This document shows positions 8,079 through 40,065 of a stretch of 49,745 nucleotides of DNA, one piece after another. Under the pieces are notes generated by a model that made no database searches, had not been told where the DNA came from, and saw only the letters and a list, made by a program, of their open reading frames with translations. This stretch comes from Acidimicrobiales bacterium (lineage in GTDB: Bacteria; Actinomycetota; Acidimicrobiia; Acidimicrobiales; JAVJTC01), in the NCBI GenBank assembly GCA_040219085.1, contig JAVJTC010000006.1:1-49745 (forward strand), written 5' to 3'. Position numbers and translations under genes: made by a program. Positions within the stretch are counted from its first letter, which is position 1. The number at the start of each line of letters is the position of its first letter.

Positions 8079-9263
8079 TCAGGTGTCGATCGCGGCGAGC
8101 AGCCGCGAGACGACCACATCCGCCGAGAAATCCGCCCGGATCCGTTCGCGCAACTCGGCGCCGACCCGCAGTGCCTCGTCGGGATTCTCAGCGACACGCC
8201 GCATCAGCGCGCCGGCATGGGCGACGTCGGGCCGTGCCCACCGCCGATCGGGGGACAGTTCCAACCAGCCGTCGGGGTCGTCGTCGGACATCGGCACGAG
8301 GTCGTAGTCGACGAGGTACGGGTAGTCGGGACCGAGATAGTCGAGGGGACCGCTCCAGCCGGTGACGATCGCCGGCACGCCCCTTGCGCCGGCCTCGAAT
8401 GGAGTGAGGCCGAAGCCTTCACCCCGTGTCAGCGAGACGAAACACTGGCCGCGGGCATGGAGACCCTCGATCACCGAGCGCGGTTCGCCCTCTCGGGTCA
8501 TGAGGTGGATCTTGGGCGCAGTGGGGTAGCGGCCGGCGAGGCGCGCCAGAGACCACAATGAGCCGGTGCGGCGTGGGTCGGTCGCCTGGCGCCCCTTGTC
8601 GCGCCGGAGCCGCTCAGAGGCAATGTGGTCGTGGGGAGTCGTCTTCAGGGCGAACGCGACCCCGTCGTCGGCGGTGAAGGTGTCGAGGAAGGCGGTGAGG
8701 GTCTCCGGGACGGCCTTACGGGTGGTCCACGTGTTGACGGAGTAGAAGACGAACTCGTCGTCGATGTCGCCGAGGCGGCCCGGCGGAGCGGGTTCGGGCG
8801 GATCGGCCGGCGCGATGTGAGGGACGACCGAGACCGGTGTGGTGACGCCGGATGCGATGAACGAGTCCCTGTTGAACGACGATGGCACGAGTACCTGGTC
8901 GAAGCGGTTGAGGATCTTCGGCCAGTGCCGTGGGATGCGATCGGCTTCCCAAGTGCAGTAGATGACGAGGCGCTTGTCGCGAAGGTGGTTCAGCCACCCC
9001 TCCCACCGGCGGGGCGGCATGTGGACGATGACGGTGTCGTGATCGATCTCTGCGTTACAGATGTCGTCGTGGCGGCAGCCGCCGACCTCGTCACCTTCGA
9101 AGGGGGCGACGCGGACCTCCCCCCGGAATCGGCTGCCGTTCACAAGCGGGGTCCACGAAACCGGGATGCCGGTCGCTCTTAGCGCCGTGATGTACTCCTC
9201 GGCCGACTCGCCGTACCCGGTACCCGGTGCCACCGCCATGTACCTGATTCCCGCGACGGTCAT
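8079..9263 (-). CDS. Glycosyltransferase, GT4-like
   Basis: 394-aa GT-B fold enzyme. The C-terminal nucleotide-sugar site shows RGEGFGLTPFEAGARGVPAI, which fits the E-x7-E signature of GT4 retaining transferases. VFYSVNTWTTRKAVPE is the typical start of the second Rossmann domain. The N-terminus (GYGESAEEYITALRATGI) matches the acceptor domain of this group. Donor and acceptor are unknown. It starts 23 nt from the divergent PqqD-like gene, so the two share one very short promoter region. It is the left edge of accessory block A. Confidence 0.82.
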   Translation of the reverse strand: MTVAGIRYMAVAPGTGYGESAEEYITALRATGIPVSWTPLVNGSRFRGEVRVAPFEGDEVGGCRHDDICNAEIDHDTVIVHMPPRRWEGWLNHLRDKRLVIYCTWEADRIPRHWPKILNRFDQVLVPSSFNRDSFIASGVTTPVSVVPHIAPADPPEPAPPGRLGDIDDEFVFYSVNTWTTRKAVPETLTAFLDTFTADDGVAFALKTTPHDHIASERLRRDKGRQATDPRRTGSLWSLARLAGRYPTAPKIHLMTREGEPRSVIEGLHARGQCFVSLTRGEGFGLTPFEAGARGVPAIVTGWSGPLDYLGPDYPYLVDYDLVPMSDDDPDGWLELSPDRRWARPDVAHAGALMRRVAENPDEALRVGAELRERIRADFSADVVVSRLLAAIDT

Positions 9264-9286
9264 CGGCTGCTACCGTCGCTCGGACG
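9264..9286. promoter_or_regulatory. 23-bp divergent promoter region
   Basis: The start codons of the glycosyltransferase (-) and PqqD-like gene (+) are only 23 bp apart. TACCGT at 9271-9276 is a good + strand -10 box, 10 nt from ATG 9287. The minus strand has only a weak TAGCAG. The + strand -35 region must lie inside the glycosyltransferase coding sequence. Confidence 0.45.
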
Positions 9287-9547
9287 ATGAGCGGTGAGAA
9301 CCCTCAGCGGGTGGACGGAGCGGAGGTCCAGCGGACCGACGACGGGATCATCGTGCACGTGCGCGAGGCCGGTCGGGTTGCCTACCTCGATCCCACGGGA
9401 GCGATTCTGTTCGAGTTGGCGGACGGCACCCGCGACGTGGCTGCCCTGGCGGCGGCCGTGGGTGAGCTCTTCGACCTCGGCGAGCCCCCGGTCCAGAGGA
9501 CCCTCGACGGGCTCCGCAAGCTCGCCGAGGCAGGCCTCATAACCTGA
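9287..9547 (+). CDS. PqqD-like RiPP recognition element protein
   Basis: An 86-aa protein with the PqqD-type winged-helix layout: a beta-rich N-terminus (VHVREAGRVAYLDPTGAILFELADGTRDV) and a C-terminal helical pair ending in LRKLAEAGLI. PqqD-family domains bind leader peptides and present them to modifying enzymes, or occur in glycan loci. No radical-SAM partner lies beside it. Neighbours are a glycosyltransferase, two sulfotransferase-domain proteins and a small exported-peptide candidate about 2.6 kb away. It appears leaderless and is transcribed alone between two minus-strand genes. Confidence 0.75.
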   Translation: MSGENPQRVDGAEVQRTDDGIIVHVREAGRVAYLDPTGAILFELADGTRDVAALAAAVGELFDLGEPPVQRTLDGLRKLAEAGLIT

Positions 9548-32221: not shown

Positions 32222-32296
32222 CGGGCTGTGGCGCAGCTTGGTTAGCGCGTCGGTCTGGGGGACCGAAGGTCGGAGGTTCAAATCCTCTCAGCCCGA
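32222..32296 (+). tRNA. tRNA-Pro (GGG)
   Basis: Folds as a complete cloverleaf. Acceptor CGGGCTG pairs with CAGCCCG. The D stem is GCGC/GCGC. The anticodon stem TCGGT/ACCGA encloses loop CTGGGGG with anticodon GGG. The T arm is GGAGG-TTCAAAT-CCTCT. The discriminator is A at 32296; CCA is not encoded. Accessory block B begins just downstream. Confidence 0.93.
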
Positions 32297-32299
32297 CAG

Positions 32300-32425
32300 A
32301 TGTGTCGACTCTTGAAGTCGGCGATGGTCGCCCTGGCAGAGGGCGACGACTCCTTAGCCATCCACGTCGACGCCAAGACGACCCGGATCGGTTTCTTCAG
32401 TGTCGCGAGGCCGTTCTACCGGTGA
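32300..32425 (+). CDS. Short open frame after tRNA-Pro (possible remnant)
   Basis: A 41-codon frame from ATG 32300 to TGA. The translated tail (DAKTTRIGFFSVARPFYR) looks protein-like, but no family is recognised. It runs through a strong hairpin at 32327-32347 and overlaps the convergent nucleotidyltransferase-like stop. It may be the decayed 3' end of a gene, a small gene, or chance. Confidence 0.25.
   Translation: MCRLLKSAMVALAEGDDSLAIHVDAKTTRIGFFSVARPFYR
32327..32347 (+). terminator. Stem-loop downstream of tRNA-Pro
   Basis: GTCGCCCT-GGCAG-AGGGCGAC: perfect 8-bp GC-rich stem with a 5-nt loop, 31 nt after the tRNA. No real T-tract follows, so intrinsic termination is plausible for a high-GC actinobacterium but not certain. 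It could also serve the convergent minus-strand operon. Confidence 0.45.
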
Positions 32426-33540
32426 ACCCACGCGCGGGCCGTACGTGTCGCACGACCGGGCTGGTCCCGCCACCGGAACGGTCGGCCGGTCAGGCGCTGC
32501 ATAGCAGGCGACGGCCGGCCGGTCATCCGCACCGCACGCCATCGGGACCTCGGATCGGGGAGGTGGGTTAGGAGCGAGCGCAGGTCCCCACCGACGGCCT
32601 CCCGGTAGGCCGCGACGGCCAGTTCTGCAGTCAGCGCGTCAGATCTCCCGGCGGACACGAGCCGCCCGGGTACGTCAGCGGGGATGTCAGCGCCGAGCTC
32701 ATCGCGCAGCAGTTGAGACGTCGACGCGATCACCGGCCCGAGCCGCCAGGAGACGCCCGTCTCGACGAAGTGATCCCAGTCGACTTCGCCTGTCTTCGCC
32801 ACGAGCACGGCATCGGCCGGCCAGCGGAGATGCCGCACACCCGGATGGCTCGAACAGAGCACGCAGAGTTCGAGCAGCGTGAGCGTCGGGTCGAGTGTGG
32901 CGACGGGCCGACCAGCCACGGTGACGACTTTGCGCTGCGCCGTCACCGATGATGCATCCACTGCGTGGAGCCGACCGGGGAACAGCGATGTGGCGATGAC
33001 GACCTCCAGGCCGGACGCGTGCTCCGACACCGCCCGGCCCGGCGCGCGCCCGAGGTGCCGGGTGACCGCTGCGACGCTCGCAGCCGCCGAGTCGAAGGCG
33101 CCGGGCTCTACGAGGATCTGGAGCGGGCCCGAGTGACGCAGGTCCGGATCGTGGTACGCCCACTCAGCGAGCGGCGGACCACGTAGGACCAGCGCATCGG
33201 AGTCAACTGCGTCGAGGACCTCGATCAGCACGGCCCTGTGGGCCTCCGCCCGGCGCCGTTCGCGGACCAGTGCCATCCGCAACAGGGTCGCGAGCTCCGC
33301 ATCCGTCTCGACCTGTGCCTCCCGCAGCCGCGATGACAGCATCGCCAGCATCCCGCGCTCGCGGCGGCGGCGTCCGCCGAACGACGACGCATGAGGCGGC
33401 CCAGTCGTCCCGCTCCACCTCTGCCAGGCTTCGCGGACCCCATCGGCGTCTGCGGCCGTGCAGCAACGCAGCAGATCGAGCCCGCCGCCGACCAGCCTGG
33501 CCAGGTCGAGCACGAGTTCGGCCGGGTGGCCGGGTTTCAC
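32416..33540 (-). CDS. Nucleotidyltransferase-fold protein lacking catalytic acids
   Basis: 374 aa. The middle and C-terminal parts match the uncharacterised nucleotidyltransferase family (PF14907-like): LVLRGPPLAEWAYHDPDLR (117-135) and later TLLELCVLCSSHP plus RWPADAVLVAKTGEVDWDHF. In active members the strand after this helix carries a D-x-D pair; here the equivalent stretch (about 138-144) reads GPLQILV, so both acids are missing. A pseudoenzyme or binding role is likely. The GTG start overlaps the PqqD-like stop by 4 nt; last gene of the minus operon of block B. Confidence 0.65.
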   Translation of the reverse strand: MKPGHPAELVLDLARLVGGGLDLLRCCTAADADGVREAWQRWSGTTGPPHASSFGGRRRRERGMLAMLSSRLREAQVETDAELATLLRMALVRERRRAEAHRAVLIEVLDAVDSDALVLRGPPLAEWAYHDPDLRHSGPLQILVEPGAFDSAAASVAAVTRHLGRAPGRAVSEHASGLEVVIATSLFPGRLHAVDASSVTAQRKVVTVAGRPVATLDPTLTLLELCVLCSSHPGVRHLRWPADAVLVAKTGEVDWDHFVETGVSWRLGPVIASTSQLLRDELGADIPADVPGRLVSAGRSDALTAELAVAAYREAVGGDLRSLLTHLPDPRSRWRAVRMTGRPSPAMQRLTGRPFRWRDQPGRATRTARAWVHR

Positions 33541-33959
33541 CCGTCGGTGGTCGGCATGCCCGACAAGCCGGGCAGTGGCGGGTCGAGCGCCAACAGGTCG
33601 GCCATGTCGTGGTAGGTGACGAGCTCCGGCGTGGCGTAGGAAGCGGTCGGCGGGTCCAGCCGGACCGCGGGCGGTGCCGCACGATCGGCCACCTCGACGA
33701 GAGACGCCTCGAGCAGACCCGACCGCAGCGCCGCTACGTCGGCCTCTGCGGTTTCGGGGTCGACGTCGTAGCGCCCGACCAGCACTTCGACGGTCTCGTC
33801 GACGGTCAGGCCCATCGCCGTCAGTAGCCAGATGTCGGACGCGACTCCCGCGAGGCTGTAGTAGGCGCCGCTGACCAGGTCGAGCGCGACGGTCTCGCCG
33901 TCGAGGGTCTCCGCGGCGATCGTGTCCTCGGGCACAACCAGTCGGGCCGGATTGCTCAT
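33537..33959 (-). CDS. PqqD-like protein with C-terminal extension
   Basis: 140 aa. Residues about 1-90 are a PqqD domain: LVVPEDTIAAETLDGETVALDLVSG, YYSLAGVASDIWLL and VEVLVGRYDVDPETAEADV. About 50 extra residues follow (LDPPTASYATPELVTYHDMADLL), absent from the PqqD-like protein at 9287 and possibly a docking tail. It lies in an operon GT2-GT4-PqqD-nucleotidyltransferase-like with 4-nt overlaps. PqqD-type domains bind peptides, but no radical-SAM gene is nearby. Confidence 0.78.
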   Translation of the reverse strand: MSNPARLVVPEDTIAAETLDGETVALDLVSGAYYSLAGVASDIWLLTAMGLTVDETVEVLVGRYDVDPETAEADVAALRSGLLEASLVEVADRAAPPAVRLDPPTASYATPELVTYHDMADLLALDPPLPGLSGMPTTDG

Positions 33960-35086
33960 GACTTCCTCCTCGATGTCACGACGTCTGTATACAAGGTCTC
34001 GTGTTCAGCGACGTAGCGGTCGAGCCCGAACCTCTCGAGTGCGTGGAGCCGCCCGGCGCGCCCGAGTTCGGTCGCCCACGCCGGGTCGTCCAGCAGGGAC
34101 GCCATCGCCGCGGCCAGAGCGTCGGGATCCTCCGGCGCAACGAGGAGCCCGGTCCGACCGTGCAGGACCACCTCGGGCAGGCCTCCGGTGTCCGAGGCGA
34201 TCACGGCCCGACCCGACAACATCGCCTCCACGGCGACCAGCCCGAACGCTTCGCGCCACCGCGACGGCATCACAACGAACGACGCCGCGGCGTGGAAGGA
34301 GCGGACCCGGTCCGGTGGGACCCAGCCCGGCAGATCCACGGCGCCGCCGACACCGAGCGCCCGGGCCCGGGCCGCGAGCGGGGTTCGTTCCGGGCCGTCG
34401 CCACCGATGACGAGTCGTGCCGAAGGGTGATCGGGCGCCACCTGCGCGAACGCGTCGACGGCGGTGTCGAAGCCCTTGTCTGTCACGAGCCGGCCGAGAC
34501 CTGCGATGACCGGCGGACCGGTCGGCGGGTCGGTTGGTTCCGGTCCGTCGGTGTCGAGGCCGTTGGGGATCACGACGCTGCGGGCGGCGACACCCGGAGC
34601 GAGCGCCTCGAGCTCGTCGACAACGGCACGTGACGCAACGCTGATAGCGGCGGCTCGCCGGAGGGCGTCACCGAGGATCGAGCCCGCTCCGGCGCCGGCG
34701 ACGTCGGGTGCGACGCGCATAGAGACGACCCACGGCGCGTCGCCGGCGGGGGTCGGGTGCCGAGCCCGCAGCAGGAAGAAGACGCTCGGATCCGTGATGT
34801 TGACATGGATCAGGTCCGGTCCGATGTCGTCGAGCAGCGTCCGGACCGTGCGAGCCGTCTCGAGGACGAGGGCGGGGTCACCGCATGTGAGGGCGTCGTG
34901 GAATGGCAACCGGTGGATCGGCGTGGCCTCGTGCACCTCGGTGTCGGGTCGGCGCCGAGGTCCGTGGCCTGTGACCACCACGGGCTCGTGGCCCCGCGCT
35001 CTCATCGCCGCCACGTACTTGGTCCCCAGCACCTCCACGCCGCCGACGAAGGGCCAGAACTGCTGGGTCCAGTATACGAAGCGCAC
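33956..35086 (-). CDS. Glycosyltransferase family 4 protein
   Basis: 376 aa GT-B enzyme. The N-terminus (WTQQFWPFVGGVEVLGTKYV) holds the GG loop of GT4 enzymes. The donor site reads VMPSRWREAFGLVAVEAMLSGRAVIASDTGGLPEVV, with the E-x7-E signature. GLGRLVTDKGFDTAVDAFA begins the second Rossmann half. The frame is open from 35137, but GTG 35086 lies 1 nt after the upstream GT2 stop and gives the usual start. Donor sugar unknown. Confidence 0.87.
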   Translation of the reverse strand: MRFVYWTQQFWPFVGGVEVLGTKYVAAMRARGHEPVVVTGHGPRRRPDTEVHEATPIHRLPFHDALTCGDPALVLETARTVRTLLDDIGPDLIHVNITDPSVFFLLRARHPTPAGDAPWVVSMRVAPDVAGAGAGSILGDALRRAAAISVASRAVVDELEALAPGVAARSVVIPNGLDTDGPEPTDPPTGPPVIAGLGRLVTDKGFDTAVDAFAQVAPDHPSARLVIGGDGPERTPLAARARALGVGGAVDLPGWVPPDRVRSFHAAASFVVMPSRWREAFGLVAVEAMLSGRAVIASDTGGLPEVVLHGRTGLLVAPEDPDALAAAMASLLDDPAWATELGRAGRLHALERFGLDRYVAEHETLYTDVVTSRRKS

Positions 35087-35087
35087 G

Positions 35088-35834
35088 TCAGCGATTCTCG
35101 GGTGTGGAGCGTGTCCCGAAGGTGTAGGGCGGTGCAACGGCCGTTCCGTCCCGTCGCCGCTGGCGCAGCGACGAACGGATCAACTCCAGGAACTCGCGGC
35201 GCGAGTCCTCGGTGCTACGTCGCGTCAGGTTGTCGCCGTGCATGCGGTGGAACGTGAGGACCCGCTCGACGACCTCCAGGCGCGCGCCGCTCTCCGAGGC
35301 CCGGATGAACCATTCGGGTGCGTCGCTGAACCGGCGCCGCGGGTCGAGTAGCCCGACGCGGTCGAAGATCTGGCGACGTGCCAGCATCGTCGTCGTGGCG
35401 AAGCCGGGGACGTCCCCTGCGCGTGGGCCGGCGTCGTCGCCGGGCCGCTCGTGGGCCACCTCGTCCTCCCAGAACATCCGGACCAGCGAGAGGCAGACGT
35501 CGAGGGTGGCGTCGGCGTTGAAACGTGCCGACTGCACCGCGAGCTTGTCGGGGTGCCAGCGGTCGTCGGGATCGAGGAACGCGACGAGATCGCCGCTCGC
35601 CGCGAGCAGCCCGGCGTTGCGCGTGGCCGCCGGGCCGACGTCGCCGTCGGTGGACACCACACGAACCGGGTCGACCCACCCGCTGCAGATCGCCAGCGTC
35701 TCGTCCGAAGATCCGTCGTCCGCGACCACGATCTCGATCGGACGGTACCGCTGGGCGCTGATGCTCTCAAGCGCTTCGGGCAGATAGCGGGCGGCGTTGA
35801 AGGTCGGCACGATGCAGCTGACGAGTACGGCCAC
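35088..35834 (-). CDS. Glycosyltransferase family 2 protein
   Basis: 248 aa GT-A enzyme. SCIVPTFNAARYLPEALES and VVADDGSSDETL bind the nucleotide sugar, and AFLDPDDRWHPDKLAVQ contains the DxD-type metal site. The open frame extends to 36128, but only GTG 35834 gives a proper start; the upstream part overlaps the divergent HPr-kinase-like gene. First gene of the minus operon of block B. It is similar in layout to the GT2 at 36996, which may be a paralogue on the opposite strand. Confidence 0.87.
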   Translation of the reverse strand: MAVLVSCIVPTFNAARYLPEALESISAQRYRPIEIVVADDGSSDETLAICSGWVDPVRVVSTDGDVGPAATRNAGLLAASGDLVAFLDPDDRWHPDKLAVQSARFNADATLDVCLSLVRMFWEDEVAHERPGDDAGPRAGDVPGFATTTMLARRQIFDRVGLLDPRRRFSDAPEWFIRASESGARLEVVERVLTFHRMHGDNLTRRSTEDSRREFLELIRSSLRQRRRDGTAVAPPYTFGTRSTPENR

Positions 35835-35880
35835 GGCGGTCGACGCTACTAGGCTGCGGACGGCGAATCGAGGAGTGGTG
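35835..35880. promoter_or_regulatory. Divergent promoter region of block B
   Basis: About 46 bp separate the GT2 start (-) and the start of the HPr-kinase-like frame (+). TAGGCT (35850-35855) is a + strand -10 box. A weaker TAGTAG on the minus strand (35846-35851) overlaps it. The ribosome-binding site AGGAG is at 35871-35875. The two operons are thus driven from one overlapping promoter. Confidence 0.45.
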
Positions 35881-36060
35881 GTGCCCGCGACGCCAATCGA
35901 CCTACGACCTTGCGGCTCCGAGCCACCCGAGGTGCTCCGAGAGTTCGTTGACGCCCTCCGCGTCGCATCCGGCCGTGCCGCGTCGTCGACGCCACGCGGC
36001 CGCGAGTTCGAGCTGTGTATCGCGGACGTGGGGTTGCTACTCCGCCTGCACCGCCGATAA
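35881..36060 (+). pseudogene. N-terminal part of the HPr-kinase-like gene, ending at an in-frame TAA
   Basis: 59 codons from GTG 35881 (good AGGAG upstream; GTG 35875 and 35878 are alternatives), ending in TAA 36058-36060. The end of the translation (GREFELCIADVGLLLRLH) looks like the first beta strand pair of HPr-kinase-related proteins. The next open frame at 36064 is in the same reading frame, 3 nt later. Either a single nonsense change has split one gene or two coupled peptides are made. A sequencing error is also possible. Confidence 0.5.
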
Positions 36061-36063
36061 CAC

Positions 36064-37005
36064 GTGTCCCTCGTCACCGATGCGCTCGGCCACCACAGGA
36101 GCGACCGGTCGCACGCCACTGCGGTCATCGACGTGTGGGACGTCGCCGAAACGGGAGCGAGCCGACCGGCAGGGCCGATGCCCGGGTCCTCCTGGACCGC
36201 CGGGTCCCGATCAGCGCGTTCTCACGGATCGGAGACCGTCCCGACCGTGCTGGCGGACTACCGCACGGACACCGACACCGTCTTCGCGTTCGACGTCGCC
36301 GGTTCCCAGGGTTTCGTCTGCACCGGGGACGCTGCGGCGATGCCCCGGTACGAGCGGAGCGCGCCGTTGCTCCCGGTGCTGCACTGGCTGCTGGCTCGCC
36401 ACGGCGTCCAGGTGGTCCACGGCGGCGCCGTCGTCCACAAGGGGAGGGCGGCGCTCGTCGTCGGTCCCGGAGGAGCAGGGAAGTCCACGACCTGCCTGTC
36501 GGCGATCGGTTCGGAGCTCGGCTGCCTCGCCGACGACTACTGCGCCCTCGAGCCTGTCGACGGCGGTTGGGTGGTACACGGGATCTCCGCGATCGCCAAG
36601 GTCGAGCCACAGGGGCTCCGGCTCCTGCCGGCCCTCGGCGGTCTGGTCGATCCGGTCGACCTGGCCGGCCGTACCGAGGCACATGACGAGAAGCTGCTCG
36701 TCCACCTCCGACGCGGGGCACGACCCCTCCCGCGACGGGCGCAGCTGGCTGCTGTCGTCGTGCCCGACCTGGCCGGTGCGGCACGACGAAGCGTCCCTTC
36801 GCTCGAACGGATCCCGCCGGCGGTCGCGTTCCGGGCGCTGGCGCCGAGCACGCTGAGCCAGCTGCCGGGCGCAGGTGCGGGCGCCGCGAAGGTCATCGCC
36901 AGGGCCCTCGCTGACACGCCCGCGTTCCGCCTGGAGCCGACGAGCGATCCGACCCGGCTCCCCGAGGTCATCGCCGCACTGCTCGACGGGAGCGCGTGGC
37001 GGTGA
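36064..37005 (+). CDS. HPr kinase-like (HprK-related) ATP-binding protein
   Basis: 313 aa. Walker A GPGGAGKST is at residues 134-142, preceded by VVHGGAVVHKGRAALVV as in HprK/PEP-carboxykinase-fold proteins. LADDYCALEP supplies the acidic catalytic segment. Proteins of this kind accompany PqqD-like proteins in peptide-modification loci (some phosphorylate a peptide Ser) and in glycan loci. GTG 36064 has no good ribosome-binding site, and an N-terminal segment is separated by a TAA. The stop lies inside the following GT2 start region. Confidence 0.75.
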   Translation: MSLVTDALGHHRSDRSHATAVIDVWDVAETGASRPAGPMPGSSWTAGSRSARSHGSETVPTVLADYRTDTDTVFAFDVAGSQGFVCTGDAAAMPRYERSAPLLPVLHWLLARHGVQVVHGGAVVHKGRAALVVGPGGAGKSTTCLSAIGSELGCLADDYCALEPVDGGWVVHGISAIAKVEPQGLRLLPALGGLVDPVDLAGRTEAHDEKLLVHLRRGARPLPRRAQLAAVVVPDLAGAARRSVPSLERIPPAVAFRALAPSTLSQLPGAGAGAAKVIARALADTPAFRLEPTSDPTRLPEVIAALLDGSAWR

Positions 37006-37700
37006 TCGAGACCGCCGACCTACCGCTCGTGACCGTCGTCGTGCCGGCTCACGATGCGGAGGCCTACCTCGCGGAGGCACTCGACAGCGCGCTTCGCCAG
37101 ACCTGGTCCCCGGTGGAGATCGTCGTCGTCGACGATGGATCGCGAGATCGCACGGCGGATGTCGCCGCTGCGGCGACTGGCGTGAAGCTGTTGCGTCAGC
37201 CCAACCGCGGGCCCGCAGCTGCCCGCAACGCAGCCGTCGCGCGAGCCACCGGGGACGTCGTCGCCTACCTGGACGCCGACGACATCTGGCCCGCGGACAA
37301 GCTGGAGGTCCAGGTCGGTTATCTGCTCCGCAATCCGGAATGCGACGCGGTCCTCGGTCGTGAGGAGGTCCTCCGCACCGACGGCGTCGAGCCCCCTCCG
37401 TGGGTCCAGCGGCTCGACGGCGGCGAGGTCGCCGACAGCCTCAGTCTCGTCACGATGGTCCTGTGGCGCCGCGTCCTCGACCGGGTCGGGCCCTTCGACG
37501 AGAGCTTCCGGGTGTCCGAGGACATGGAATGGCTCGTGCGGGCGCGGGCGCTCGGCGTGCGCGTCGACCGTGTCGACGAGGTCGTGCTCCGACGACGGAT
37601 CCACGGCGCGAACCTCTCGTACCGCGCCGACGAGCAGCGGCAGGGGCTGTTCCGCGCGCTACGCGGACGAGCCCGGCGCGACAGGGGTGATGCGCATTGA
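36996..37700 (+). CDS. Glycosyltransferase family 2 protein
   Basis: 234 aa GT-A enzyme. VTVVVPAHDAEAYLAEALDS and VVVDDGSRDRTADV bind the nucleotide, and VVAYLDADDIWPADKLEVQ holds the DxD motif. VSEDMEWLVRARALG near the C-terminus is the acceptor-side ED-type motif. The GTG start overlaps the HPr-kinase-like stop by 10 nt. It shares the DxDD-x-W-P/H-ADK pattern with the divergent GT2 at 35088-35834. Confidence 0.88.
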   Translation: MAVIETADLPLVTVVVPAHDAEAYLAEALDSALRQTWSPVEIVVVDDGSRDRTADVAAAATGVKLLRQPNRGPAAARNAAVARATGDVVAYLDADDIWPADKLEVQVGYLLRNPECDAVLGREEVLRTDGVEPPPWVQRLDGGEVADSLSLVTMVLWRRVLDRVGPFDESFRVSEDMEWLVRARALGVRVDRVDEVVLRRRIHGANLSYRADEQRQGLFRALRGRARRDRGDAH

Positions 37701-38782
37701 TCCGCGTCGTCGGCTCCATCCGTCACGGTGTCCGGCGGCTCCGCCACCACCTGGGGCGGGCGCGCTTCGTGCTCGGGCCACCCGAGCCGTTCGCCCCGTT
37801 CATGGTCGTGTGCTTCCGACCGGTCGTCGTCCACGCCAAGGACTGGGCGTTCCGGCACCCCCGTGCGCCGATCCACGGGCTGCTCAGCGGCCTCGCAGGT
37901 CGACCGGTCCACCTGTTGCTGTCGCCGTCGTGGACCTACGACCGTGACGACCTGGCAAAGCGCGCCCGCCGGATGGTCCGCCGCATCGAGCGGCGTCATC
38001 GCCACGTCGAGGTCGTCTTTTTGGCGCCGAACCGCGCCGAGGTCGAACGGCTGGTCGCCGCGGGCGTGCGGGTCGAACACGTCAATCAGAACGCGTTCTC
38101 CCACGAAGGGACCTACCGCCCCTTGGCGCACGTCGAGAAGCGTCACGACGCGATCTACGACGCGCGGCTGACGTCGTTCAAGCGGCACGAGCTCGCTGCC
38201 GAGATCGCCAGCCTGGCGTTGATCCCCTCGTTCTACGAAGGCCGAATAGATCCCGCTTACGAGGCGAAGGTGCGCACGCGCCTCGCCCACGCCCACCTCT
38301 ACGTGGACCCGTTCAGGGGCGAGCCGCGCCTCGCGCCGTCGGCGGTCAACCGTGCTCTCAACGAGTGCCGCGTCGGGCTGGCGCTGTCGGCGGTCGAGGG
38401 GTCGATGTTCGCCAGCATCCAGTACCTGCTCGCCGGACTACCCGTCGTCTCGACGCCGAGCAGCGGCGGACGCGACGAGTTCTTCCACCCCGACTACGTG
38501 AGGATCGTCCCGCCGACGCCCGAGGCGGTGGCGGAAGGGGTCGACGAGCTGGTGAGCTGTGCCGTGGGCCCCGAAGAGATCCGGTCGCGCACCTTGGAGC
38601 TCGTCTGGACCCATCGTCGACGGTTCGTGGATCTCGTCGACGGGTTCGCCGCCGCGGCGGGGCTCGATGCGCCGCGGTCCGGCGCGTGGCCGGACGCGTT
38701 CACGAACTACCTCCTCGACGGCCTCGAGCCACGCAACGCCGAGATCATCGCAGCGGTCGACCGCGCCTCAGCGAGTCCCTGA
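37697..38782 (+). CDS. Glycosyltransferase, GT4-like
   Basis: 361 aa. The C-terminal half reads LALSAVEGSMFASIQYLLAG then PVVSTPSSGGRDEFF, the donor-binding region of GT4-type enzymes. The N-terminal half (FRPVVVHAKDWAFRHP) is not obviously matched to a known acceptor domain. It starts with TTG 37697 overlapping the GT2 stop (TTGA), a rare start chosen because no in-frame ATG or GTG lies near. Convergent with the GT10-like gene, overlapping 15 nt. Confidence 0.7.
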   Translation: MIRVVGSIRHGVRRLRHHLGRARFVLGPPEPFAPFMVVCFRPVVVHAKDWAFRHPRAPIHGLLSGLAGRPVHLLLSPSWTYDRDDLAKRARRMVRRIERRHRHVEVVFLAPNRAEVERLVAAGVRVEHVNQNAFSHEGTYRPLAHVEKRHDAIYDARLTSFKRHELAAEIASLALIPSFYEGRIDPAYEAKVRTRLAHAHLYVDPFRGEPRLAPSAVNRALNECRVGLALSAVEGSMFASIQYLLAGLPVVSTPSSGGRDEFFHPDYVRIVPPTPEAVAEGVDELVSCAVGPEEIRSRTLELVWTHRRRFVDLVDGFAAAAGLDAPRSGAWPDAFTNYLLDGLEPRNAEIIAAVDRASASP

Positions 38783-39769
38783 CGCCGGGGCGAGCCGGGC
38801 GGCGACCTCGGCCCTCCAGTGAGCGGCGGTGAACCGCAGCGCGGCGCTCGACGAGAAGAAGCGCACGGCCGCCTCACGGCGTTGCATCACCTCGTCGTGT
38901 GACATGGTTTGGGCGATCTCGACCACCTCTCCGGGTCGCAGGCCGTTGCAGTCGACGTAGCAGTCCGGCGGGACGAGATCGGCCGCGAGCCCGCCGCCGC
39001 CGCGGTAGAGGGGGATCGAACCGGCGCGGAGGGCGTCCAGCATCTTCTCGGTGACGTAGCCGGCGACGTCGGCATTCTCGTAGGCGACGGTGAACGTGTA
39101 GCTGCGCAGCGTCGCGATCTTGTCGTCCACCGGACCCCTGTAACGGTCGTACGCGGTCCAGCGGTTGGTGCCGTCGCGGCCGGGATGGCCGAAGATGTCG
39201 ATGTTGCCACCGAAGGCCTCGACGACGGCGAGCCGCTCGTCGAGGAGGGACTCGGGTGCGTCGTTGCGGGCGTACCGGGCGACGATGGAGCAGAGGTGGG
39301 GTCGGATCGCCGCCACGGTCGGCGCGAGCCGTCCGGCGATCTCGGCGGGATCGAGTCCGCGCAGGACGGGGTAGACCATCCGTCGGGCCGGATCGGGATC
39401 GTCGCCGCGGTACCAGTGCGCTGCGACCTCGGCGGTCCCGAGGAGCCGCTTGGTCTCGTCGGTCATGAACATCGGCGGTTCGTAGGTGCAGAACACCCTC
39501 GGGCCGGCGAAGTCGACGAACTCCTCGTCGAGGTGGTTGAGGGCCACGAGGTACGAAGGAAGGATTCGACGGACCGGTGTGCGGGTCGCCAAACCCTGTC
39601 GGAAGAGCTCGAGGGTTCGAAACGACGCGCTTCGGTGCCGCTCGTTTCCGATGCCGTAGAGCCGGACCGGGTCGGGGCTGACGACGCTGCGCAGGTACCC
39701 GGGGTTCGTCATGCGGCGCCGCATCGCGTGCCCGATCCGGGTCGCCGTCGCGACGATGCGTCGTTCCAT
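38768..39769 (-). CDS. Fucosyltransferase-like protein, GT10 family
   Basis: 333 aa. The stretch YTFTVAYENADVAGYVTEKM continuing to LDALRAGSIPLYRG is the alpha-1,3-fucosyltransferase signature (GDP-fucose binding). It would add fucose or a similar deoxysugar to a surface or secreted glycan. The open frame extends to 40033, but upstream residues overlap the small gene at 39799. ATG 39769 is the first sensible start, 26 nt downstream of a minus-strand TACGGT box. It lies at the right edge of block B. Confidence 0.78.
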   Translation of the reverse strand: MERRIVATATRIGHAMRRRMTNPGYLRSVVSPDPVRLYGIGNERHRSASFRTLELFRQGLATRTPVRRILPSYLVALNHLDEEFVDFAGPRVFCTYEPPMFMTDETKRLLGTAEVAAHWYRGDDPDPARRMVYPVLRGLDPAEIAGRLAPTVAAIRPHLCSIVARYARNDAPESLLDERLAVVEAFGGNIDIFGHPGRDGTNRWTAYDRYRGPVDDKIATLRSYTFTVAYENADVAGYVTEKMLDALRAGSIPLYRGGGGLAADLVPPDCYVDCNGLRPGEVVEIAQTMSHDEVMQRREAAVRFFSSSAALRFTAAHWRAEVAARLAPASGTR

Positions 39770-39798
39770 CGTGCCCGTGAGCCTGAAGAAACCGTAGG

Positions 39799-40065
39799 TC
39801 AGCTGGGTGCCGCGCGGACGAGGCGTCCGAACTGGTAGAGCGCGTCGAGATGGTTCGCAAGACGCACCAGGTCGTCGTTCGACCACTCCTCGGACGCTTG
39901 GGAGAGGAGTGCCACGAAGTCGACGGGATCCTCGCGCCGCGTGCGGTGGGCGCGGGCGACGAATGCGGCGAATCTGTCCAGGTCGTCGGGTCGCAGCATC
40001 AGCAGATCCGCTTCTTCGATGAACTCTTCCCATCGTTCGGCGAGCGTCGGTGCGAGCGGCGACAT
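39799..40065 (-). CDS. Small hypothetical protein
   Basis: 88 aa, mostly helical and Glu/Asp/Arg/Leu-rich (AERWEEFIEEADLLMLRPDDLDRF), no signal peptide and no cysteine. It lies immediately upstream of the GT10-like gene, 29 nt apart, so it probably shares its transcript. Not recognised. A helper or regulator of the glycosyltransferase is possible from position only. Confidence 0.45.
   Translation of the reverse strand: MSPLAPTLAERWEEFIEEADLLMLRPDDLDRFAAFVARAHRTRREDPVDFVALLSQASEEWSNDDLVRLANHLDALYQFGRLVRAAPS

Follow-up and report, generated by a model that had tools for sequence, protein, structure and literature searches.

What does a peptide-recognition protein do in a locus that encodes no peptide for it to recognize? 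This question is raised by a gene island at positions 32416-40065 of the window, by which we mean the whole 49,745-nucleotide stretch analyzed here (positions 1 to 49,745, forward strand, of contig JAVJTC010000006.1 from the Acidimicrobiales bacterium assembly GCA_040219085.1). The island combines a PqqD protein, a recognition element (RRE) for ribosomally synthesized and post-translationally modified peptides (RiPPs), with an HprK-like kinase, a nucleotidyltransferase (NTase)-family protein and several glycosyltransferases (GTs). RRE domains are used to flag hidden peptide natural products, and a first-pass annotation had described an island lacking a radical-SAM protein, cyclase, protease and separate precursor. 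The genes that it named are present, with Pfam matches that bear out its assignments, and its absences hold as well; what it missed is a leader-like sequence located on the PqqD protein itself. Our proposal, to which we give about an even chance, is that the island forms a glycan cassette around a "captive-leader" RRE: bound to its own tail, the RRE would scaffold the kinase, the NTase and the GT2 enzymes in making a phosphorylated surface glycan.

The PqqD protein carries a leader-like tail

The PqqD protein (33537..33959, minus strand; 140 aa; PF05402, 48.9 bits) ends in a tail comprising residues 108-140 (33540..33638, minus strand; YATPELVTYHDMADLLALDPPLPGLSGMPTTDG), which is supported by an AlphaFold2 (AF2) model, a homologue alignment and covariation with D74. 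The tail carries the motif [FY]xxPxLxx[YF]xDMxxLLxLDP, the start of which resembles a lasso-peptide leader placed in cis to the RRE; YxxP is the recognition sequence of lasso RREs (PMC12710340). Among 71 aligned homologues, the tail follows an unconserved linker and has the consensus [FY]xxPxLxK[YF]TDMxDLL[LA]LDPIHxVDxxGWP, while a second subtype, to which the window PqqD belongs, ends in LALDPPxPGL. The named loci were gathered partly via the pattern DMxxLLxLD, so conservation within that stretch is biased, but F/YxxPxL, DP and GWP fall outside it. The residues outside the pattern are nearly invariant: the aromatic F/Y is found in 69/71 homologues, the following Pro in 69/70, the Pro of DP in 71/71 and the Trp in 61/65.

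The model folds this tail as an additional strand. Built from a 63-sequence alignment (mean predicted local distance difference test score, pLDDT, 89.6), it places the tail in a strand (113-116) and a helix (119-123), with confidence dropping only beyond about residue 120. Residues 5-93 are nearest to the RRE-leader complexes of TbiB1 and TfuB1 (Z 12.7 and 12.2, respectively). In the LppB-LppA crystal structure, LppB D70 hydrogen-bonds the leader Tyr (PMC13381572), and in an ungapped alignment LppB residue n corresponds to window PqqD residue n+4, so that D70 is the equivalent of D74. Position 74 is Asp in 22 of the 27 homologues with a Tyr tail and in one of the 47 with a Phe tail (Fisher p 5e-13; within-phylum permutation p 1e-4). 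With more sequences added, the counts become 23/29 and 1/60, the additions containing just two Tyr tails, one of which breaks the rule. An occupied groove predicts just this pattern, in which the Asp is lost exactly where the tail has no Tyr hydroxyl to hydrogen-bond. Together, the AF2 prediction and the covariation give good support to the idea that the leader groove of the PqqD protein is occupied by the C-terminal YxxPxL tail of the same protein. The groove of the adaptor appears to have been retained and filled by its own leader-like tail.

The tailed PqqD recurs with a kinase and glycosyltransferases

A scan of named genomes found 67 tailed PqqD genes beyond the own genome, in records titled Cyanobacteria, Chloroflexi, Gemmatimonadota, Acidobacteria, Proteobacteria, Actinomycetota, Spirosoma (Bacteroidota) and others, further ones being Anammoxibacter (Planctomycetes) and Uhrbacteria (Patescibacteria). 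The tail is rare in evenly drawn phylum samples, occurring in 9/396 genomes of the own phylum besides the own genome (five of them strong) and in 21/292, 5/200, 5/231 and 10/227 genomes of four other phyla. Nearly all of the 67 loci contain GT2 genes and most contain NTases; HprK is present at 53 and ABC-transporter-type genes at 24 (neighbour cluster counts of 60 for GT2 and 57 for HprK take in the four own-genome islands). Several gaps in these neighbourhoods are due to contigs ending early. Seven Chloroflexota loci that seemed to lack HprK were rejected as such, each genome holding a match elsewhere (7/7, with E < 1e-100 in six). Furthermore, HprK and GT2 adjoin the tail at loci from the evenly drawn samples of two phyla that were found by the tail alone, and one genome holds three cassettes (L177-L179).

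The trio of PqqD, HprK and NTase together with GT2 thus recurs across many phyla, and this recurrence argues that the gene association is not due to chance. A neighbourhood scan across phyla also bears out the first-pass view that the trio links peptide-tailoring and glycan loci. Some of the genes are fused: a single 623-aa open reading frame (ORF) at L179:6171-8042 comprises PqqD, tail, a second RRE-like segment and HprK, L086 encodes an HprK-GT2 fusion and L083 an ABC exporter-GT2 fusion. Distances in the PqqD tree correlate with those in the HprK tree (r 0.81; permutation maximum 0.29), a congruence that may come partly from shared descent. In six of six loci with an NTase of the NT9 subfamily the tail is of the DPP subtype, a hint that could mean either NTase-tail contact or shared descent.

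The tailed RRE accompanies HprK, NTP_transf_5 and GT2 proteins, joined at some loci by a glycan initiator or exporter. The link to glycan assembly rests on the Bac_transf genes of L022, where the gene lies directly upstream of the tailed PqqD in the own genome, and L067, and on the ABC-2 permeases of L118 and L180. These genes, together with the many GTs and the sugar-nucleotide genes near some cassettes, would equally be expected of an ordinary capsule or exopolysaccharide locus in which PqqD, HprK and NTase are unrelated passengers. We consider that explanation improbable, since the trio accompanies GT2s across many phyla, fusions occur among these genes, and the PqqD and HprK trees are congruent. 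By its own criterion, the first-pass annotation would be overturned if the set were a standard capsule locus lacking any link to a peptide. This applies only halfway: the cassette does have the look of a glycan locus, but the adaptor keeps a leader-binding groove that is apparently self-filled.

AT-rich genomes of 1.6-2.1 Mb in the Oscillatoria phylum sample (L172-L176), which we take to be perhaps gut non-photosynthetic lineages, also carry the cassette; in the majority, HprK measures roughly 500 aa and has an extra RRE-like C-terminal part. Beside several AT-rich copies lie genes resembling those for sugar-nucleotide enzymes, a further link to glycan assembly.

No separate precursor found with the cassette

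The suggestion that a peptide encoded elsewhere is the substrate found no support. No free-standing tail peptide was detected in the own genome at E values up to 10, nor in 30 other genomes save for a weak match (E 0.02) in a 228-aa frame, and a 22-aa tail match at L215 was rejected as a free peptide, its stop-riddled sequence looking like a remnant. No conserved small ORF beside the 71 cassettes qualifies as a precursor; the only ones shared near cassettes are copies common to three closely related Oscillatoria and two small sets of ORFs that are short and antisense-like. Furthermore, no peptidase or cyclase was recognized among the recurrent neighbour families.

The tail itself could instead be the substrate, with an RRE fused to its own precursor, to which both phosphate and sugar would be added in place; the product would be a modified protein or, once cleaved, a linear phospho-glycopeptide. 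The tail does begin with a leader motif followed by a conserved segment, MsbA-type exporters are present in part of the cassettes (L070, for example), and in pseudomycoidin biosynthesis an HprK-type kinase, PsmK, phosphorylates a peptide Ser and the NTase PsmN leads to hexose addition (PMC9266682). However, Ser occurs between the DM motif and the C-terminus in just 39 of 84 tails, and LppK requires Ser, with Thr and Tyr not accepted (PMC13381572), which makes the tail an unlikely kinase substrate. The L179 fusion places the tail inside the protein, the neighbour families include no recognized peptidase, and the distal tail is conserved, as RiPP cores are not. Modification of the tail is, in our view, unlikely.

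Tailed and tail-less PqqD proteins in one genome

The own genome (3.77 Mb, 45 contigs) contains 13 PqqD family matches and one more recovered with a purpose-built profile. An HprK-like kinase and GT2s accompany four of the 14, in the islands of the window, L022, L025 and L026, and each of these four PqqDs has a C-terminal tail beyond the RRE; HprK and GT2 occur together at 4/4 tailed but 0/10 tail-less PqqDs. The lasso-type clusters of this genome possess separate, tail-less RREs.

These clusters bear on a further explanation, in which the tail is autoinhibitory and guards the groove until pushed out by the true precursor, whose gene would lie elsewhere. Conservation extends to both the groove and the motif, RREs can bind leaders tightly and selectively (PMC13381572), and the genome encodes a lasso-type leader, AYEVPAVTDFG, at L029. 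Nonetheless, no conserved partner peptide lies near the 71 cassettes and the lasso-type clusters use RREs of their own, and we regard autoinhibition as quite improbable.

The tail-less PqqDs occupy varied settings. A lasso-type cluster at L023:8018-14296 (C20) combines one with a Transglut_core3 (B2) protein, two HprK-like genes, an NTase-like gene and an Asn synthase. At L029:8413-10251 (C29), another is found with a Transglut_core3 protein, an HprK-like gene and a 44-aa peptide containing the lasso-like YEVPAV motif; we rejected this locus as a complete lasso cluster, as the match of its 538-aa gene is to the impB/mucB/samB polymerase family and the genes checked yielded no Asn-synthase-type cyclase. 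The tail-less PqqD at L031:8430-9045 (C34) adjoins a 91-aa protein whose start is Tat-like and which contains GGNQT[WF] repeats, possibly an RRE-partner substrate. A radical-SAM protein with a C-terminal PqqD domain lies at L027:7251-11322 (C4) with a discrete PqqD, a JmjC-type protein and an HprK-like gene, and at L024:8047-9668 (C20) a 385-aa HprK-like kinase is fused to a C-terminal PqqD domain and neighbours another PqqD-type protein. The window holds a second, tail-less PqqD of 78 aa (8079-9547), which adjoins a GT4-like protein; a relative of the latter sits near the tail-less PqqD of L031.

Catalytic residues of the kinase, NTase and GT2 proteins

The HprK-like P-loop protein (36064..37005, plus strand; 313 aa from a GTG start, with a shorter alternative start possible at 36247) falls under both the Pfam and NCBIfam cut-offs, and its AF2 model has the PEPCK/HprK fold. 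It has H119, K140, D157 and D158, the His-Lys-Asp-Asp (HKDD) residues of lasso-tailoring kinases (PMC9266682), which are retained in 42-43 of 43 cassette HprKs. Likewise, the cassette GT2s (n=126) keep their DDGS and DxDD-type motifs.

The NTP_transf_5-family protein (32416..33540, minus strand; 374 aa from a GTG start; PF14907, 60.8 bits) lacks the DxD metal-binding pair, reading LRHSGPLQILV at this site. The L025 copy lacks it as well, and the pair is altered in 3/3 NTases adjoining tailed PqqDs in the own genome; it is intact in about two thirds of the relatives having letters at those columns. Judged by this loss, the window NTase is probably a pseudo-enzyme or binding subunit, or depends on another copy.

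A proposed model for a self-loaded RRE

In the mechanism we propose, the PqqD/RRE would be permanently loaded with its own leader-like tail, in the groove that accommodates, in lasso systems and in those for linear polyphosphorylated peptides (LPP), a leader belonging to a separate precursor. The tail's distal half (DMxxLLxLDP), presented by the loaded RRE, would then dock the kinase, NTase and GT2s, in the way supposed for free leaders in RiPP pathways; in LPP, the distal leader has been proposed to contact the modifying enzymes (PMC13381572). The resulting complex would phosphorylate and elongate a surface glycan or glycolipid rather than a cleaved peptide. The window PqqD, an RRE with a [FY]xxPxL...DMxxLLxLDP tail and with HprK and GT2 neighbours, has the features by which we would define such a cassette. 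Peptide-modifying enzymes seem to have been re-used here for sugar assembly. We offer more tentatively, at somewhat below an even chance, the broader formulation that this is a RiPP tailoring system minus the peptide, in which an RRE with a built-in leader permanently switches on or scaffolds kinase, NTase and GT2s that make a phosphorylated glycan on a non-peptide acceptor in many phyla.

Several points weigh against this model, besides the search bias and the possible share of descent in the tree congruence mentioned above. Docking of the enzymes on the distal tail is something we infer, as are the non-peptide acceptor and the order of steps, and related HprK-like kinases phosphorylate peptide Ser. 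Six of the 29 Tyr tails are without Asp74. The tail may possibly be exchanged as a strand between two subunits rather than bound within one, and a precursor may possibly lie unlinked in the genome and be unlike any known leader.

Organization of the island

On the minus strand, the genes are tightly packed in the order GT2, GT4, PqqD and NTase, with start/stop overlaps at PqqD. The GT2 (35088..35834; PF00535, 107 bits) has intact catalytic motifs, as judged from motif conservation among cassette GT2s, and the start of the GT4 (33956..35086; PF00534, 137.9 bits) is that of the gene caller. The plus-strand set, comprising the HprK-like, GT2 and GT-like genes, diverges from an intergenic region common to both sets. 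Its GT2 (37002..37700; PF00535, 121 bits) has chondroitin synthases, heparosan synthases and other GT2s as relatives in the Protein Data Bank (PDB). The GT-like protein (37697..38782; 361 aa) has weak GT1-type similarity (PF13692, 21.1 bits, under the cut-off), with no relative among the own-genome islands and no recurrence in other cassettes. After this set come a convergent, accessory GT10-like, fucosyltransferase-type gene (38768..39769, minus strand; PF00852, 34.7 bits), whose product matches fucosyltransferases in the PDB (best E 7e-6), and an 88-aa orphan ORF of uncertain membership (39799..40065, minus strand) with zero matches in Pfam and NCBIfam. The Pfam scores of the NTP_transf_5, PqqD, GT4, GT10 and both GT2 proteins all exceed the cut-off. 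The island encodes no polymerase, flippase, exporter or initiating sugar transferase.

The neighbouring tRNA-Pro(GGG) at 32222-32297, beside which the first-pass annotation had placed the island, is real. We nevertheless rejected a tRNA-borne mobile island: the window contains no repeat of this tRNA of at least 14 bp, so nothing marks an integration site, and there is no GC shift.

Comparison with known systems

HprK-related kinases of the HPr-rel-A system (TIGR04352) occur with PqqD-type and NTase genes, a lead only, and the window kinase scores 22.4 bits against this family, whose cut-off is 200, and so falls outside it. Among known systems, the LPP family, encoded by lpp clusters in Bacillota, comes closest (PMC13381572). 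Its core is a discrete RRE, an HprK-like kinase, an NTP transferase and an MsbA-like exporter, and capsule loci and YxxP recognition are further points of likeness. The window island has the lasso/LPP-type RRE, the HKDD kinase and the NTP transferase gene (PF14907, with DxD lost), and its genes at 32416-40065 include neither a separate precursor with a YxxP leader, nor an SpI-like (signal-peptidase-like) leader peptidase, nor, among the Pfam matches, an MsbA-like exporter. Whereas LPP clusters have a separate precursor and an SpI-like leader peptidase, the cassette has its leader-like sequence joined to the RRE with no long, variable stretch after it, and GT2s belong to the constant set.

The lasso peptides paeninodin and pseudomycoidin (PadeK, PsmK/PsmN; PMC9266682) likewise share an HKDD HprK-like kinase, a nucleotidyltransferase-type protein and an RRE with the island, which differs in lacking a precursor and, by Pfam, the B2 leader peptidase and the Asn-synthase-like cyclase. 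The closest solved structures to the RRE part are the lasso B1 proteins TbiB1 and TfuB1 (5v1v, 5v1u and 6jx3), with their leader-binding groove; these are tail-less and bind the leader in trans, whereas the window PqqD carries its tail in cis.

We found no published description of the tail in the literature searched, most subscription journals lying outside its scope. A 2025 survey of RREs reported that 21% of PF05402 proteins are larger than a discrete RRE and have no other annotation (PMC12710340), and the tailed PqqDs would belong in this oversized group. If the model is true, leader-carrying RREs in sugar assembly explain many "orphan" PqqD-like genes without a precursor, the uncharacterized HprK-like and NTP_transf_5 proteins of glycan loci gain a testable role, and a peptide-recognition module has been recruited to polysaccharide biosynthesis. 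Compared with these systems, neither the enzymes nor the RRE are of a new kind; what appears new, going by the literature searched, is a leader in cis, without a core, in a sugar cassette found across phyla.

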